NCBI RefSeq assembly: GCF_900111835.1
Contig: NZ_FOJP01000003.1
Span: forward strand, 1 to 64,000
Direction: 5' to 3'
Origin: Metapseudomonas otitidis
GTDB taxonomy: Bacteria; Pseudomonadota; Gammaproteobacteria; Pseudomonadales; Pseudomonadaceae
Length of the DNA: 64,000 nucleotides
The position numbers and the translations under genes were made by a program. The notes beneath the pieces are model-generated. The model had not been told where the DNA came from, ran no database searches, and saw only the letters and a list, made by a program, of their open reading frames with translations. Positions 28,444 to 52,558 of this stretch are shown piece by piece (position 1 is the stretch's first letter; each line of letters starts with the position of its first letter).

Positions 28444-28551
28444 GTCAGCGGATACCCTGCGGGGAACTCAAGTGATGGGGTCGCCGGCCGCTATACTGGA
28501 ATCGCGCTCCACCGCCAGCCCGGACGGGGCGGCATTATACATGTCATCCCC

Positions 28552-28591: not shown

Positions 28592-30139
28592 ATGACCGAG
28601 ATCAGCACTTCGCGCCCCATCGCTTCCGTGCCCACCGCCAGCCGGGCGGCGCAGGCTGTAGCAGATGCCGCGCTGAAGCTGCTGCAACCATCCAATGGCC
28701 TGCTGGCGGCCGGCGACAGCGCCGAGGCCGAGGTCGTCAGCGTCAAGGAAACCGCACAGAACAGCTTCCAGGTGATGCTGCGCCTGAGCCTGGGCAGCGG
28801 CCAGCAGGCAACGCTGGAAGCCACCAGCACGCGCCCCCTGAGCCAGGGCTCGCTGGTGAACGTCACGGCCCTTTCGGACAGCCGCCTGATGGTAGCCCTG
28901 CAACCGACCGGTGCCCTGCCGCTGGACAGCCTGGACCTGGAGCAAGTGCCGGTCGGCACGCTGATCCAGGGCAAGGTGGTCGCCAGTGAACAGCTTGCCG
29001 AGGCAAAAGCGACCGTCTATCGCACCCTGATCAACCTGATCAACACGCCGCTGGCAGGCCGCCAGCTGGCTGTCGACAGCCCGCAACCGCTGCCGGTCGG
29101 CAGCCTGCTCAGCGCCCAGGTCCAGGGCGACCAGTCCCTGCGCTTCATCCCGCTGAGCAATCGCCTGGACCAGTTGGCCCTCAGCCAGCAGTTGAACAGC
29201 CAGGTGTCGCGCCAGGGTTCCCTGGAGGGCCTGTTCGGCGCCCTTGCCGAACTCGACCCGGACCTGCCACCGAACCTGCGCAACGCCGTGGAGCGCCTGC
29301 TGGGCTCACTGCCCGGCCCCGGCCAGCTGAGCGACGCCAAGCAACTGGCCAAGGCCATGGAGAACAGCGGTGCGCTGCTGGAGGCGCGCCTGCTGGCCGG
29401 TCATGGCGCCGCCACCGGGCAGGACCTGAAGGGCAACCTGCTGCGCCTGATCGCCCAATTGCTGCCTGAGCTGCCCAACGCACCGGCGGCGCTGCCCACC
29501 GCTGGCGCCAGCAACGCCATGGCCCAGGCCCTGCCGGCCTTCATCCGCAACGCACTGGGCTCCCTCGGCCAGGCCAGCTCGCGCCAGCAGGCACTGAGCT
29601 TCCCCCTCCCCTCCCGCCTGGCCCAGGCCGCACAGGAGGAAGGCGACCTGGAAACCCTGCTGAAGCTGGCGGCGGCAGCCGTCTCGCGCCTGCAGACCCA
29701 CCAGCTCTCCAGCCTGGCGCAGTCGCAGATGACCCCGGAGGGCAACCTCGTCACCACCTGGCAGCTGGAGCTGCCGATGCGCAACCAGCAGGAAATCGTC
29801 CCGCTGCAGATCAAGATCCAGCAGGAAGAGCGTCAGGCCCAACAACAGCGGCGCAAGGACGAACAGAAGGAAAACCTCTGGCGTATCGAACTGGCGTTCG
29901 ACATCGCCCCCTTGGGCCCTTTGCAGGTCCAGGCGCAGTTGCTGCGCGGTTCGATCTCCAGCCAACTGTGGGCGGAGCGAGCCGCCACGGCGCGCTTCAT
30001 CGACAGCGAACTGGGCAATCTGCGGGAGCGGCTGGTGGCCGCCGGCCTGGAAGTGGGTGAACTGGCCTGCCAGCAAGGCACGCCGCCCCAAGGTCCACGC
30101 ACGACCCTGCAGCAACGCTGGGTGGATGAGACGGCATGA
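28592..30139 (+). CDS. Second FliK-like protein (flagellar hook-length control C-terminal domain)
   Basis: The 515-residue protein is mostly glutamine/alanine/leucine-rich and helical. Its last 130 residues have the Flg_hook (FliK C-terminal) pattern: WQLELPMRNQQEIVPLQIKI, WRIELAFDIAPLGPLQVQAQ and LRERLVAAGLEVGELACQQG. It is distinct from the canonical fliK at 51156-52493. It overlaps by four bases (ATGA) with a gene for a free FlhB C-terminal domain, its natural partner type. It is on the opposite strand from the flagellar cluster, and a leader terminator precedes it. The start at 28592 has a weak ribosome-binding site. The function is inferred to be substrate-specificity control or a modified export role. 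Confidence 0.8.
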   Translation: MTEISTSRPIASVPTASRAAQAVADAALKLLQPSNGLLAAGDSAEAEVVSVKETAQNSFQVMLRLSLGSGQQATLEATSTRPLSQGSLVNVTALSDSRLMVALQPTGALPLDSLDLEQVPVGTLIQGKVVASEQLAEAKATVYRTLINLINTPLAGRQLAVDSPQPLPVGSLLSAQVQGDQSLRFIPLSNRLDQLALSQQLNSQVSRQGSLEGLFGALAELDPDLPPNLRNAVERLLGSLPGPGQLSDAKQLAKAMENSGALLEARLLAGHGAATGQDLKGNLLRLIAQLLPELPNAPAALPTAGASNAMAQALPAFIRNALGSLGQASSRQQALSFPLPSRLAQAAQEEGDLETLLKLAAAAVSRLQTHQLSSLAQSQMTPEGNLVTTWQLELPMRNQQEIVPLQIKIQQEERQAQQQRRKDEQKENLWRIELAFDIAPLGPLQVQAQLLRGSISSQLWAERAATARFIDSELGNLRERLVAAGLEVGELACQQGTPPQGPRTTLQQRWVDETA

Positions 30140-30468
30140 AACAGACCGAACGCCGCCAAGCGATTGCCCTGTCCTATGACGGGGTCAGTGCACCGAACCT
30201 GACCGCCAAGGGTGACGACGAGCTGGCCGAGGCGATCCTCGCCATCGCCCGCGAGTACGAGGTGCCGATCTACGAGAACGCTGAGCTGGTGCGCCTGCTG
30301 GCGCGGATGGAACTGGGCGAGGCCATCCCCGAGGCGCTGTATCGCACGCTGGCCGAGATCATCGCCTTTGCCTGGTACCTGAAGGGCAAATGCCCGGCGG
30401 GCTTCGACCCCGACGCCACCCGGGACGTGACGCCCGGCCTGCCGCTGCTGGAGGGCCCTAAGGGCTGA
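30136..30468 (+). CDS. Free-standing FlhB C-terminal-domain homologue (FlhX/YlqH type)
   Basis: The 110-residue soluble protein aligns with the part of FlhB that follows its NPTH autocleavage site. Its RRQAIALSYDG matches the HFAVALKYDP segment of this genome's FlhB (from H273), and VPIYENAELVRLLARMELGEAIPEALYRTLAEIIAF matches VTVLESPALARAV...EIPAGLYLAVAQVLAY. There are no membrane segments and no NPTH motif, so it is a ready-made FlhB-CC domain. FlhX/YlqH proteins of this kind are known to replace or interact with FlhB-CC in other bacteria. It is coupled to the FliK-like gene and overlaps the convergent rhodanese gene by 11 bp. Confidence 0.85.
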   Translation: MKQTERRQAIALSYDGVSAPNLTAKGDDELAEAILAIAREYEVPIYENAELVRLLARMELGEAIPEALYRTLAEIIAFAWYLKGKCPAGFDPDATRDVTPGLPLLEGPKG

Positions 30469-30989: not shown

Positions 30990-31400
30990 TCAGCTCTGGG
31001 CCTGCTTGCGCGCGAGCTGGAGCTTGCTGACCAGTTCCGCCTCGGCCTTGCTGAGCCCACAGGAATGAGTGAGGTCGTCGACGCTCGCCCCCATGCCCGC
31101 CAGGCGCGCAGCCTGGGTGAAGGAGATGCTGCTGGGGTCGCGCTGCTCGATCTGACTGACCTTGTCGGGCAGCGGCGCCACCACCCGGCGCAGCTCGTGC
31201 AACTCCTCCCCCATGCGGATGCTGCCGCTGAGGTAGGCATCGAGACGGCGGGCCAGTTCCTTCAGCCGCTGGTCTCGAGCCGCTTCGCGCTTGGCCTGTT
31301 CCTGGGCGAGCTCCAGCTGCTGCCGGCGCAATCGCACGCAGGCGAAGGCGAGCGCCGCACAGGCGACCGCCAGGACCAGCAGCGCGATCTCGATCAGCAC
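30990..31400 (-). CDS. DUF2802-domain membrane-anchored protein
   Basis: The 136-residue protein has one N-terminal membrane helix (residues 3-24), a coiled-coil stretch rich in Q/E/K/R (about 25-80), and a C-terminal DUF2802 domain (ISFTQAARLAGMGASVDDLTHSCGLSKAEAELVSKLQ) resembling a small helix-turn-helix-like fold. The same gene follows cheW in other Pseudomonas; its role is unknown, but placement suggests a link to polar chemotaxis or motility. It begins one base after the cheW stop. Confidence 0.8.
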   Translation of the reverse strand: MLIEIALLVLAVACAALAFACVRLRRQQLELAQEQAKREAARDQRLKELARRLDAYLSGSIRMGEELHELRRVVAPLPDKVSQIEQRDPSSISFTQAARLAGMGASVDDLTHSCGLSKAEAELVSKLQLARKQAQS

Positions 31401-40180: not shown

Positions 40181-40927
40181 TCAGGCACGCCACTCACCCA
40201 GCCGGGCCCGCAAACGCGCGGCGCACTGGCTGTGCAACTGGCTGACTCGGGATTCACTGACTCCCAGCACTTCACCGATTTCCTTCAAATTCAGCTCTTC
40301 GTCGTAATACAGCGCCAGCACCAGGCGCTCTCGTTCCGGCAGATTGGCGATGGCATCGGCCAGCGCCGCCTGGAAGCGCTCGTCTTCCAGGTCATTCGAA
40401 GGTTCGAGATGGGTGACTCCGGTGTCTTCGTGCGCCGTGCCATGCTCCCCGCCTTCCAGAAGGTCGTCGAAGCTGAACAGCCGGCTGCCCAAAGTGTCGC
40501 TCAGGATGCCGTAGTAATCTTCGAGACTCAATCCAAGTTCGGCCGCAACCTCCTGATCTTTAGCGTCACGTCCGGTTCTTGCCTCGACTTTGCGGATGGC
40601 GTCGCTGACCATCCGGGTATTGCGGTGGACCGAGCGCGGTGCCCAGTCGCCCTTGCGGACCTCGTCGAGCATCGCCCCGCGGATGCGGATCCCGGCGTAG
40701 GTCTCGAAACTCGCGCCCTTGCTGGAGTCGTACTTCTTCGATGCTTCCAGCAGGCCGATCATCCCCGCCTGCATGAGGTCTTCAACCTGCACGTTCGCCG
40801 GCAAGCGTGCCAGCAGGTGGTAGGCGATCCGCTTGACCAGGGGCGCGTAGCGCTCGATCAGCTGGTGCTGGGAATCCCCGGCCTGAGCCTTGTTGTACAT
40901 GCGAAGTCCACTTGCGGGTGGTGTCAT
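40181..40927 (-). CDS. fliA: RNA polymerase sigma-28 factor FliA
   Basis: The 248-residue sigma factor contains region 2 (YAPLVKRIAYHLLARLPANV, DLMQAGMIGLLEA, GASFETYAGIRIRGAMLDEVR), region 3 (WAPRSVHRN) and region 4 (LPERERLVLALYYDEELNLKEIGEVLGVSESRVSQLHSQ). It transcribes late flagellar and chemotaxis genes. Its start overlaps the fleN stop by four bases (ATGA). Confidence 0.96.
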   Translation of the reverse strand: MTPPASGLRMYNKAQAGDSQHQLIERYAPLVKRIAYHLLARLPANVQVEDLMQAGMIGLLEASKKYDSSKGASFETYAGIRIRGAMLDEVRKGDWAPRSVHRNTRMVSDAIRKVEARTGRDAKDQEVAAELGLSLEDYYGILSDTLGSRLFSFDDLLEGGEHGTAHEDTGVTHLEPSNDLEDERFQAALADAIANLPERERLVLALYYDEELNLKEIGEVLGVSESRVSQLHSQCAARLRARLGEWRA

Positions 40928-45470: not shown

Positions 45471-46607
45471 CTACTCGTCGCGCCGCAGATCGGCGGGGAT
45501 GGGCGGCTCGGAAAGCGGCGGCGGTCGCTTGGCCTTGCCGGCACGGAACTGCTTGAGCTGATAGACGTAGGCCAGCACCTGGGCCACCGCCAGGTAGAGG
45601 CCGGCCGGAATCTCGTGGTCCAGCTCGGTGGAATAGAACACCGCCCGCGCCAGTGCCGGCGACTCCAGCACGGTGACCTTGTGCTCCTGGGCGATCTCGC
45701 GAATCTTCAGCGCGGTGAAGTCGTTGCCCTTGGCCAGCAGCACCGGGGCGGTGCCCTTGGCCGGGTCGTACTTGAGCGCCACGGCGAAGTGGGTCGGGTT
45801 GGTGATGACCACGTCGGCCTGGGGCACGGCAGCCATCATGCGGCGCTCGGCCATCTCCCGCTGCATGCGGCGGATGCGCGCCTTGACCTCGGGCTTGCCC
45901 TCGGAGTCCTTGTACTCGTCGCGCACTTCCTGCTTGGTCATCATCAGCTTCTGCTTGTTGTCCCAGAGCTGGTAGGGCACGTCGATCCCTGCGATGAGGA
46001 TCAGCCCGCAGGCCAGCCAGACCGCACTCCAGCCCACCACCTGGACGCTGTGCAGGATGGCCCGGTCCAGCGGCTCATGGGCGATAGCCAGCAGATCATC
46101 GGCATCGGCAGAGAGCACCATGAGCGCCACTATCAGCACCAGCGCGAACTTGCCCAGAGCCTTGAGCAACTCCACCAGCGCATGGGTGGAAAACATGCGC
46201 TTGAGGCCGGAAAGCGGATTCATCCGGCTGAACTTGGGTGCCATCGCCTCCGGGGAGAACAGCCAGCCCCCAAGCGCCGTAGGCGCCGCAAGGGAGATGA
46301 TCAGCAGGGTCACCATCAGCGGCATCGTCGCTGAGAGCGCCATCTGCCCGGCATGCAGGAGGAACAGACCCATGCTGCGCTCGTCCAGCAACACCTCGCG
46401 GGAGAAGTCGAAGCTGCTGCGCATCATCTTCATCATCATGTCCGCCAGCCCCCCACCAGTGGCCAGCAGCCCGCCTGCCCCACCCAGGGTGATGGCCAGG
46501 GTGTTCAGCTCCCGGGATCGAGCGATCTGCCCCTTCTCGCGTGCCTCCTGCTGGCGTTTCGCTGTGGGTTCTTCGCTCTTGTCCGCCCCGCTCTCACTCT
46601 CCGCCAT
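45471..46607 (-). CDS. flhB: Flagellar export switch protein FlhB
   Basis: The 378-residue protein has four membrane helices and a cytoplasmic domain with the autocleavage motif NPTH (N270-H273) in VVITNPTHFAVALKYDP. Cleavage switches export from hook to filament substrates, triggered by FliK. It is the last gene of the fliLMNOPQR-flhB operon, 60 bp after fliR. The free FlhX-type gene at 30136 copies the domain after this cleavage site. Confidence 0.96.
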   Translation of the reverse strand: MAESESGADKSEEPTAKRQQEAREKGQIARSRELNTLAITLGGAGGLLATGGGLADMMMKMMRSSFDFSREVLLDERSMGLFLLHAGQMALSATMPLMVTLLIISLAAPTALGGWLFSPEAMAPKFSRMNPLSGLKRMFSTHALVELLKALGKFALVLIVALMVLSADADDLLAIAHEPLDRAILHSVQVVGWSAVWLACGLILIAGIDVPYQLWDNKQKLMMTKQEVRDEYKDSEGKPEVKARIRRMQREMAERRMMAAVPQADVVITNPTHFAVALKYDPAKGTAPVLLAKGNDFTALKIREIAQEHKVTVLESPALARAVFYSTELDHEIPAGLYLAVAQVLAYVYQLKQFRAGKAKRPPPLSEPPIPADLRRDE

Positions 46608-51155: not shown

Positions 51156-52493
51156 TCAGGCGTAGTAGTCCACCAGACCCCGGGCGACGCCGGCCGCAGC
51201 AGGTCGCAGTTCACTGACACCTGCCAGCGTCTCGTCATCGCCGGAACCGCCCAGCAAGCCGCCATTGCCACTGCCGCCGCCACGACGCTCACCCTCGCCG
51301 CCCTGCTGGCCTTGCCAGCTGCGCGCCAGGGACTGGTCGGAGACGTTGACGTCGAGCTGGGTCATGCCCTGCTGGTTGAACATGTCGCGCAGGCGGTGCA
51401 TCTGCCCTTCCAGCGCATCCCGCACGCCGGCGTTGGGGCTGGCGAAGGTGACCTGGGTCTGGTCCTGGTTCATGTGGATGCGCACCTCCAGCCGTCCCAG
51501 CTCCTGCGGGTCGAGCTGGATCTCGGCGGACTTCAGGTTCTGACTGGACAACCACATCACCCGGTCCACCACCGCCTCGCTCCAGCCGTTCTGGTTGATG
51601 GCCACCGGCTGGCCGGGCACCACGGCCGGGGCACGCTGGGCCATGGCCGATTGCTGGGTCACGGCCTGGTTGAGGGCATTCAGGCGGCTGTCCAGCACCT
51701 CGCTGCGGATCTCCGCCTTGTTCTCGCCCAGCCCCTGGACCAGTTGTTCGGAGAACTCGCCGGCCGGCAACTCGACCTCGGGCGGCGTCTCGCTCACGTC
51801 GGCGTTCTTCTCGGAGAAGGCTGCCATGGCGCTGGCGAAGTTATGACTGCCGCTGGCGGAATTCTGGCTGTTCACCGTGGTAGTGGTGGCCGTCTGGACC
51901 GGGTCGCCCTCATTGCTGGCCTGCAGTGTCTGGGGCAGACCGACGACACCCTGGAGCGGGTCGGTTTCCTCTGCCCTGGGCTGGGTTGCCTGGGTCTGGG
52001 GCGTCGTGGCCAGTGGCGTGGTGACCACCAGCGCCGGCACCTCGGGCTGCACATCCGCCGGCTGTACCTGCGGTTCGGTGGGCACCGGCGGCGTCTGGCC
52101 GTTCATGGCCATCAGCAGCAGCGGATCGAGCGTCGAACTGCCGTCGCTGGACGTGGTATCCGTCGAATCGTCGCTGGTGGTGGTGGCGGCTGCATCCGAC
52201 GGCAAGGCGTTGCCGCTATCGGCAACGGTGGTCGGCTTGTCTGCCGGTGCGGCAGCCGGTTTGTCGGCCGGCTCGTCACTCTTGCGGTTGTCGGCAGGCT
52301 TGTCCCGGGCCTGCTTGGGCGCGGGTTCACTTCGTTCTGCAGGCTTGGCTTGCCGTTCCTTCGCATACATCTGGGCGAAGCTGGGAGCCCCGCTGTTGCT
52401 GGGCTCGGGCGTCCGCACCTGGGACTTTGCCGCCTGAAAGTTCGGCTTCACCTCAGGCTTGGCCTGCAGAAGCATATCGGGGGCAACGGGCAT
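51156..52493 (-). CDS. fliK: Flagellar hook-length control protein FliK
   Basis: The 445-residue protein has a long disordered Pro/Ala/Thr/Asp-rich N-terminal part (ruler and export signal) and a conserved C-terminal Flg_hook domain (VMWLSSQNLKSAEIQLDPQELGRLEVRI, then the HMNQDQTQVTFASPNAGVRDALEGQMHRL segment; both read in part). It interacts with FlhB to switch export specificity. I start at the ATG ending at 52493 with GGAGAG upstream. It has its own sigma-54-like promoter and terminator, so it is a single-gene unit. Confidence 0.93.
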   Translation of the reverse strand: MPVAPDMLLQAKPEVKPNFQAAKSQVRTPEPSNSGAPSFAQMYAKERQAKPAERSEPAPKQARDKPADNRKSDEPADKPAAAPADKPTTVADSGNALPSDAAATTTSDDSTDTTSSDGSSTLDPLLLMAMNGQTPPVPTEPQVQPADVQPEVPALVVTTPLATTPQTQATQPRAEETDPLQGVVGLPQTLQASNEGDPVQTATTTTVNSQNSASGSHNFASAMAAFSEKNADVSETPPEVELPAGEFSEQLVQGLGENKAEIRSEVLDSRLNALNQAVTQQSAMAQRAPAVVPGQPVAINQNGWSEAVVDRVMWLSSQNLKSAEIQLDPQELGRLEVRIHMNQDQTQVTFASPNAGVRDALEGQMHRLRDMFNQQGMTQLDVNVSDQSLARSWQGQQGGEGERRGGGSGNGGLLGGSGDDETLAGVSELRPAAAGVARGLVDYYA

Positions 52494-52533
52494 GGGCACT
52501 CTCCGCTGGGGGTTGGATTCGTGCCAGGGAGAT

Positions 52534-52549
52534 TGCAAGTGACGGGCCA
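52534..52549 (-). promoter_or_regulatory. Sigma-54-type promoter of fliK
   Basis: On the minus strand the element is TGGCCCGTCACTTGCA, with GG-N10-GC spacing and a consensus TTGCA -12 box, in the 65-bp gap between hptB and fliK. It would allow fliK expression independent of the hsbAR-hptB genes. Confidence 0.7.
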
Positions 52550-52558
52550 AGTCCGCCG

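Follow-up and report, generated by a model that had tools for sequence, protein, structure and literature searches.

A second FliK-type gene overlapping a gene for a free FlhB C-terminal domain: a candidate accessory unit of flagellar export

A stretch of 64,000 nucleotides of Metapseudomonas otitidis DNA (the window) carries two overlapping genes, fliK2 and fhlB, which encode a second FliK-type protein and a stand-alone equivalent of the C-terminal cytoplasmic part of FlhB (FlhB-CC). Their products, FliK2 and FhlB, probably form a co-translated accessory unit of flagellar export, a reading that takes in a presumed late expression, a presumed binding of the two proteins to each other and a presumed action after the hook-to-filament switch. 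At the level of sequence, the identity of the proteins, their coupling, their dependence on flagellar genes, an ancient split of FhlB from FlhB and the conservation of a predicted FliA-type promoter are established, and an accessory role of the pair after switching is what we infer.

Gene layout and domain architecture

The two open reading frames and their four-base overlap were confirmed as the initial annotation had described them (Table 1), as was their location on the strand opposite to that of the flagellar cluster with cheW, parA, motA, cheA, fliA, flhF, flhA, flhB and fliK. The ATG of fliK2 at 28592 is kept in relatives, so that a longer GTG start at 28472 is unlikely. The pair is bordered on the 5' side by ccmA-ccmB and on the 3' side by a rhodanese-like gene, a DUF2802 gene and cheW, all on the other strand. 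The genes fhlB (+) and that for the rhodanese-like protein (-) are convergent, their 3' ends sharing 11 nt (window 30458-30468). In many families a DUF2802 gene (here at window 30990-31400) likewise separates cheW from the pair. A fusion of fliK2 and fhlB was considered and rejected, as the long open frames are stop-to-stop frames.

Table 1. Positions in the window of the pair, its domains and sites, and related flagellar genes
Feature	Position	Strand	Basis or remark
fliK2 (second FliK-type protein, 515 aa)	28592..30139	+	PF02120 E 6e-18; AF2 pLDDT 76.7
fhlB (stand-alone FlhB-CC-like protein, 110 aa)	30136..30468	+	PF01312 262-334; AF2 pLDDT 84; matches 3b1s/3b0z
ATGA stop/start overlap of fliK2 and fhlB, 4 nt	30136..30139	+	ORF coordinates; same -4 overlap in 46/57 adjacent pairs
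Predicted sigma-28 (FliA)-type promoter, TCAAG-N14-GCCGCTAT	28468..28494	+	About 124 bp upstream of fliK2 ATG; 18/18 in genus
Two N-terminal beta-barrel domains of FliK2, residues 43-105 and 124-187 (OB-like, weak)	28718..29152	+	AF2 secondary structure
Conserved helical module of FliK2, residues 191-293, motifs SGLFLE and DLKA	29162..29470	+	Family alignment, AF2
FliK C-terminal switch (T3S4) domain of FliK2, residues 419-501	29846..30094	+	PF02120; structural match to 5cuk, 2rrl
FhlB A19-P20 = FlhB A286-P287 (early-substrate pocket)	30190..30195	+	Alignment to 3b0z; P20 invariant in 59
FhlB A73, I76 = FlhB A341, L344 (early-substrate pocket)	30352..30363	+	A73 in 59/59; position 76 I or L throughout
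Sigma-28-type sigma factor gene (fliA candidate)	40181..40927	-	Pfam Sigma70 r2/r3/r4; adjoins ParA-type ATPase (fleN-like) and SRP54-type GTPase (flhF-like) genes
Full-length flhB, intact NPTH and CC domain	45471..46607	-	Context gene
Main fliK of the flagellar cluster	51156..52550	-	Context gene

The FliK character of the larger protein lies in its C-terminal part, which matches Pfam Flg_hook (PF02120) at 64.9 bits against a gathering cut-off of 29.8, a model that also matches 54 of 54 relatives. In the predicted model, this part resembles the PscP switch domain (5cuk; Z 6.2, rmsd 3.0 over 76) as well as the FliK-C structure 2rrl. The N-terminal barrels match OB-like folds weakly (VIA Z at most 6.1, and for the second barrel only), so no fold is claimed for them. 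A profile made from the N-terminal part finds FliK2 proteins, including one that is parted from its FhlB, and misses the main FliK of the window.

The smaller protein corresponds to the part of FlhB that follows the cleavage site. It aligns with positions 262-334 of the 335 in Pfam Bac_export_2 (PF01312; E 4e-17), matches the FlhB tail of its own genome with 40% identity across 78 residues, and has FlhB cytoplasmic domains as its closest PDB sequence matches. The best NCBIfam model is TIGR00789 (flhB_rel), which scores 71.5 bits, below its curated cut-off of 117.35, and which matches 59 of 59 aligned relatives. Against TIGR00328, the model for full FlhB, FhlB covers only positions 268-346 of 348, and the NPTH motif is absent, so FhlB is not a full FlhB. 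The AlphaFold2 model, made from an alignment of 59 relatives, matched in a structure search the C-terminal domains of FlhB, EscU, YscU, SpaS and PscU and little besides, with a VIA Z of 10.6 for 3b1s_D (rmsd 3.5 over 79 residues) and of 9.6 for 3b0z_B (rmsd 3.3 over 78 residues). The latter match begins at FlhB P270, with which residue 5 of the model pairs, so that the protein begins just before the P270 equivalent of cleaved FlhB. FhlB is thus a stand-alone FlhB-CC, having the FlhB-CC fold without a transmembrane or CN part and beginning beside the cleavage site; the predicted fold likewise upholds the earlier assignment of the 110-residue protein, as the PF02120 and structural matches do that of its partner to the FliK type. 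The four residues that form the early-substrate pocket of Salmonella FlhB, A286, P287, A341 and L344 (PMC9307174), have their counterparts in FhlB (Table 1). In a tree of 79 FhlB and 44 FlhB-CC sequences from Pseudomonadota (88 columns), all FhlB stand apart from all FlhB-CC (support 0.986); the two being fully separate groups, FhlB is an old paralogue and not a recent copy.

Co-conservation and the link to the flagellum

The distribution of the pair was followed in 184 genomes of the class, mostly one per family. A flagellar-type FlhB is present in 99 of them, a count from which G064, with an injectisome-like FlhB and no FliK, was excluded. The short protein is present in 68 of the 99, and an extra FliK accompanies it in 66 of these 68 genomes as against none of the 31 that do without it (Fisher p ~1e-23, kinship ignored). 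At 58 loci read in other genomes, 45 chosen by FhlB and 13 by FliK2, the gene for FliK2 lies directly upstream of that for FhlB in 57: all 13 loci chosen by FliK2 have FhlB, and at 44 of the 45 chosen by FhlB the gene for FliK2 is its direct neighbour. With the start codon closest to the stop, 46 of the 57 adjacent pairs have the exact 4-nt overlap, and the arrangement is thus beyond chance. Co-conservation of the two genes, which the initial annotation had named as a check, is thus supported, and neither of the two results that it had set down as counting against its reading was obtained. At the one exceptional locus (L047:3962-6752, minus strand) FliK2 is upstream, and three co-directional chemotaxis-type genes, cheW-like, cheY-like and STAS-like, stand between it and fhlB. 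Outside the class, a recognisable FliK2 stands beside 13 of 20 FhlB genes; in two genomes (L161:4358-5371 and L164:3950-4966) an FhlB-type gene comes after a corA-type magnesium transporter gene, not after fliK2. The pair is missing from about a third of the flagellated genomes in the class and is thus not essential to flagella in general.

The FlhB of pair carriers keeps its CC domain, with NPTH in 18 of 20 and NPVR or NPSH in the other two. As carriers retain a complete FlhB, usually with NPTH, the pair is no stand-in for a defective FlhB, and the proposal that it replaces cleaved FlhB-CC by need finds no footing. A second proposal, that the pair serves another export system, fares no better, the pair being in one copy whether there are one or two flagellar systems, and absent or broken where flagellar genes are missing. 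FhlB is single-copy in 18 of 18 genomes of the genus, including three with a second flagellar FlhB. The genome of the window itself encodes another set for flagellar export (FlhA, FlhB and a FliK-type gene; contig C13:318000-352000, L011/L012), which has no FhlB of its own.

Genomes that seemed to carry the pair without flagella were inspected individually. In the first (G031), which has neither FlhA nor full-length FlhB, repeat insertions have broken both fliK2 and fhlB, and a function without flagella was rejected on this ground; the second (G044) is a fragmented assembly in which FlhA is present. The locus L071:7883-9854 comes from a complete genome that has neither FlhA nor full FlhB; it keeps cheW, parA, cheA and related genes, whereas copies of one repeat interrupt fliK2, fhlB and cheB, and it is a flagellar cluster caught in decay. 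An association with FlhF was uninformative, since almost every flagellated genome sampled has a match over the cut-off of the FlhF model.

A predicted FliA-type promoter and the probable timing of expression

The site predicted from sequence upstream of fliK2 is close to TAAAG-N14-GCCGATAA, its -10 box, GCCGCTAT, being two bases off GCCGATAA. Its spacing is that of the FliA consensus applied to Pseudomonas, TAAAGTTT-N11-GCCGATAA (PMC7286023). The pattern TMAAG-N14-GCCGMTA has seven matches in the whole genome: one before fliC, three before chemoreceptor-type genes (with cache, PDC or HBM sensor domains and HAMP), one before fliK2-fhlB and two at apparently unrelated places. The reversed control pattern has 14, so that the count alone is no evidence for FliA, which lies instead in the genes downstream and in conservation. 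The site stands before the pair in all 18 genomes of the genus (Table 1), and in sister lineages the core varies with motif and spacing kept, as TAAAG-N14-GCCGATAC in L229 and L231, as TCAAG-N14-GCCGTTAT in L232 and L234 and as TCAAG-N14-GCCGCTAC in L058. The pattern was picked after the window site had been seen, and independent testing comes from the other families: there, only 7 of 52 fliK2 upstream regions score 11 out of 13, where shuffles predict 0.1, and sites occur at 0.34 per kb before fliK2 versus about 0.03 per kb in the rest of these loci. Two loci, L051 and L052, have a perfect 13/13 FliA consensus (TAAAG-N14-GCCGATAA) some 330 bp beyond fhlB, on the same strand as that gene. No sigma-70 promoter was found upstream of fliK2 and no sigma-54 site in the 52 upstream regions. 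The region before fliK2 gave no Rfam match and a weak fold z-score, and the idea of a small RNA or a terminator there was rejected.

Sigma-28 is active only after the hook-filament switch, and the conserved FliA-type promoter therefore suggests that fliK2-fhlB is probably made after that switch. The pair had been described as lying outside the export operons, which is correct as to position; with its own FliA-type promoter, however, it looks like part of the flagellar regulon.

Possible roles and known relatives

As an accessory unit of export, the pair would be made by sigma-28 only after hook completion and export of FlgM, FliK2 and FhlB would bind each other in the manner of FliK-C and FlhB-CC, and FhlB would act on the export gate after the switch, with FliK2 controlling FhlB. 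In Salmonella, FlhB-CC keeps the apparatus in its early mode and is required for early secretion, and FliK helps to eject it once the hook is finished (PMC13344023). Since sigma-28 is active only after that step, FhlB made under sigma-28, together with a FliK-type partner of its own, would appear when the original FlhB-CC is gone. FhlB might refill the site vacated at switching, or it might hold leftover rod and hook subunits in the conserved early-substrate pocket. That most flagellated gammaproteobacteria have a second, late specificity module of this kind, in which a sigma-28-controlled FliK2-FhlB complex refills the FlhB-CC site or traps early substrates after the switch, is a tentative and rather doubtful extension; if true, export specificity would be controlled at two times and not once. 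A copy of FlhB-CC produced that late might just as well be a silent backup.

It is unlikely that FhlB is a constitutive backup for lost or uncleaved FlhB-CC, idle while FlhB is intact. Going by its title, the 2006 report of Wand et al. (cited in PMC3040844) reportedly describes HP1575 as a 'spare part' that permits export in H. pylori when FlhB-CC is deleted, and FhlB would suit such a part in beginning near the P270 equivalent and keeping the pocket. Yet it has been kept over deep time though the FlhB of its carriers is complete, it is coupled in the class to a dedicated FliK-type partner, and the promoter of the pair is of the late type. The chances are smaller still that the pair is the counterpart of enteric Fluke (Flk/RflH) and blocks premature switching. 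Fluke and FlhB-CC both hold the early mode in Salmonella (PMC13344023), and Fluke occurs in one family only (f156; 8 of 249 genomes of the phylum), which has little or no stand-alone FhlB; this exclusion, however, involves a single clade and so amounts to one event, many genomes have neither Fluke nor the pair, and expression from a sigma-28 promoter would come too late for this role. Least probable is control of hook length at the first switch, as the initial annotation suggested. That switch is known to have FliK-C and FlhB-CC as its two halves, and FliK2 carries the switch domain; but a complete main FliK and a complete FlhB are encoded in this genome, the profile of the N-terminal half of FliK2 shows no relation to the window's main FliK, and the late-looking timing of the pair fits this role less well.

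Stand-alone FlhB-CC proteins (FhlB/FlhX, HP1575) and an flhX-fliK pair are already in the literature, so the kind of protein is not new: the flhX-fliK pair is named in Nitratiruptor (PMC9321776), FlhX is counted as an export component in surveys, including the same paper, and flhX (Cj0848c) is entered in a C. jejuni table. In the literature searched, we found no paper on the Pseudomonas fliK2-fhlB pair and no function of a stand-alone FlhB tail beyond the 'spare part' report; the overlap rule, the distinct N-terminal half of FliK2 and the FliA-type promoter are, as far as searched, unreported. A stand-alone FlhB tail is conserved in most of the flagellated gammaproteobacteria sampled, and its dedicated FliK partner and late promoter pose a testable question, namely what role a copy of FlhB-CC has after the original has been ejected. 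The late promoter also changes how the role of the pair should be tested. As far as the sampled enteric relatives show, the pair is absent from the Salmonella model; it allows the interaction of FliK-C with FlhB-CC, by which switching is driven, to be studied with simple genetics outside that model.

Like HP1575/FlhX of Helicobacter and Campylobacter, to which it is likened by description, FhlB is a free FlhB-CC without a membrane part, encoded apart from flhB; unlike them, fhlB has a 4-nt overlap with a FliK2 that has an N-terminal module of its own, and a FliA-type promoter. With the C-terminal cytoplasmic domain of FlhB (3b0z, 3b1s) it shares the fold, the conserved core and the four-residue substrate pocket, and it differs in being a separate gene product that forms a separate clade in the tree and has no transmembrane or CN part and no NPTH. 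FliK2, in turn, resembles the FliK C-terminal domain and the PscP switch domain (2rrl, 5cuk) in its own C-terminal switch domain, whereas its N-terminal half is predicted to consist of beta-barrels and a helical module where the main FliK has a half of low complexity.
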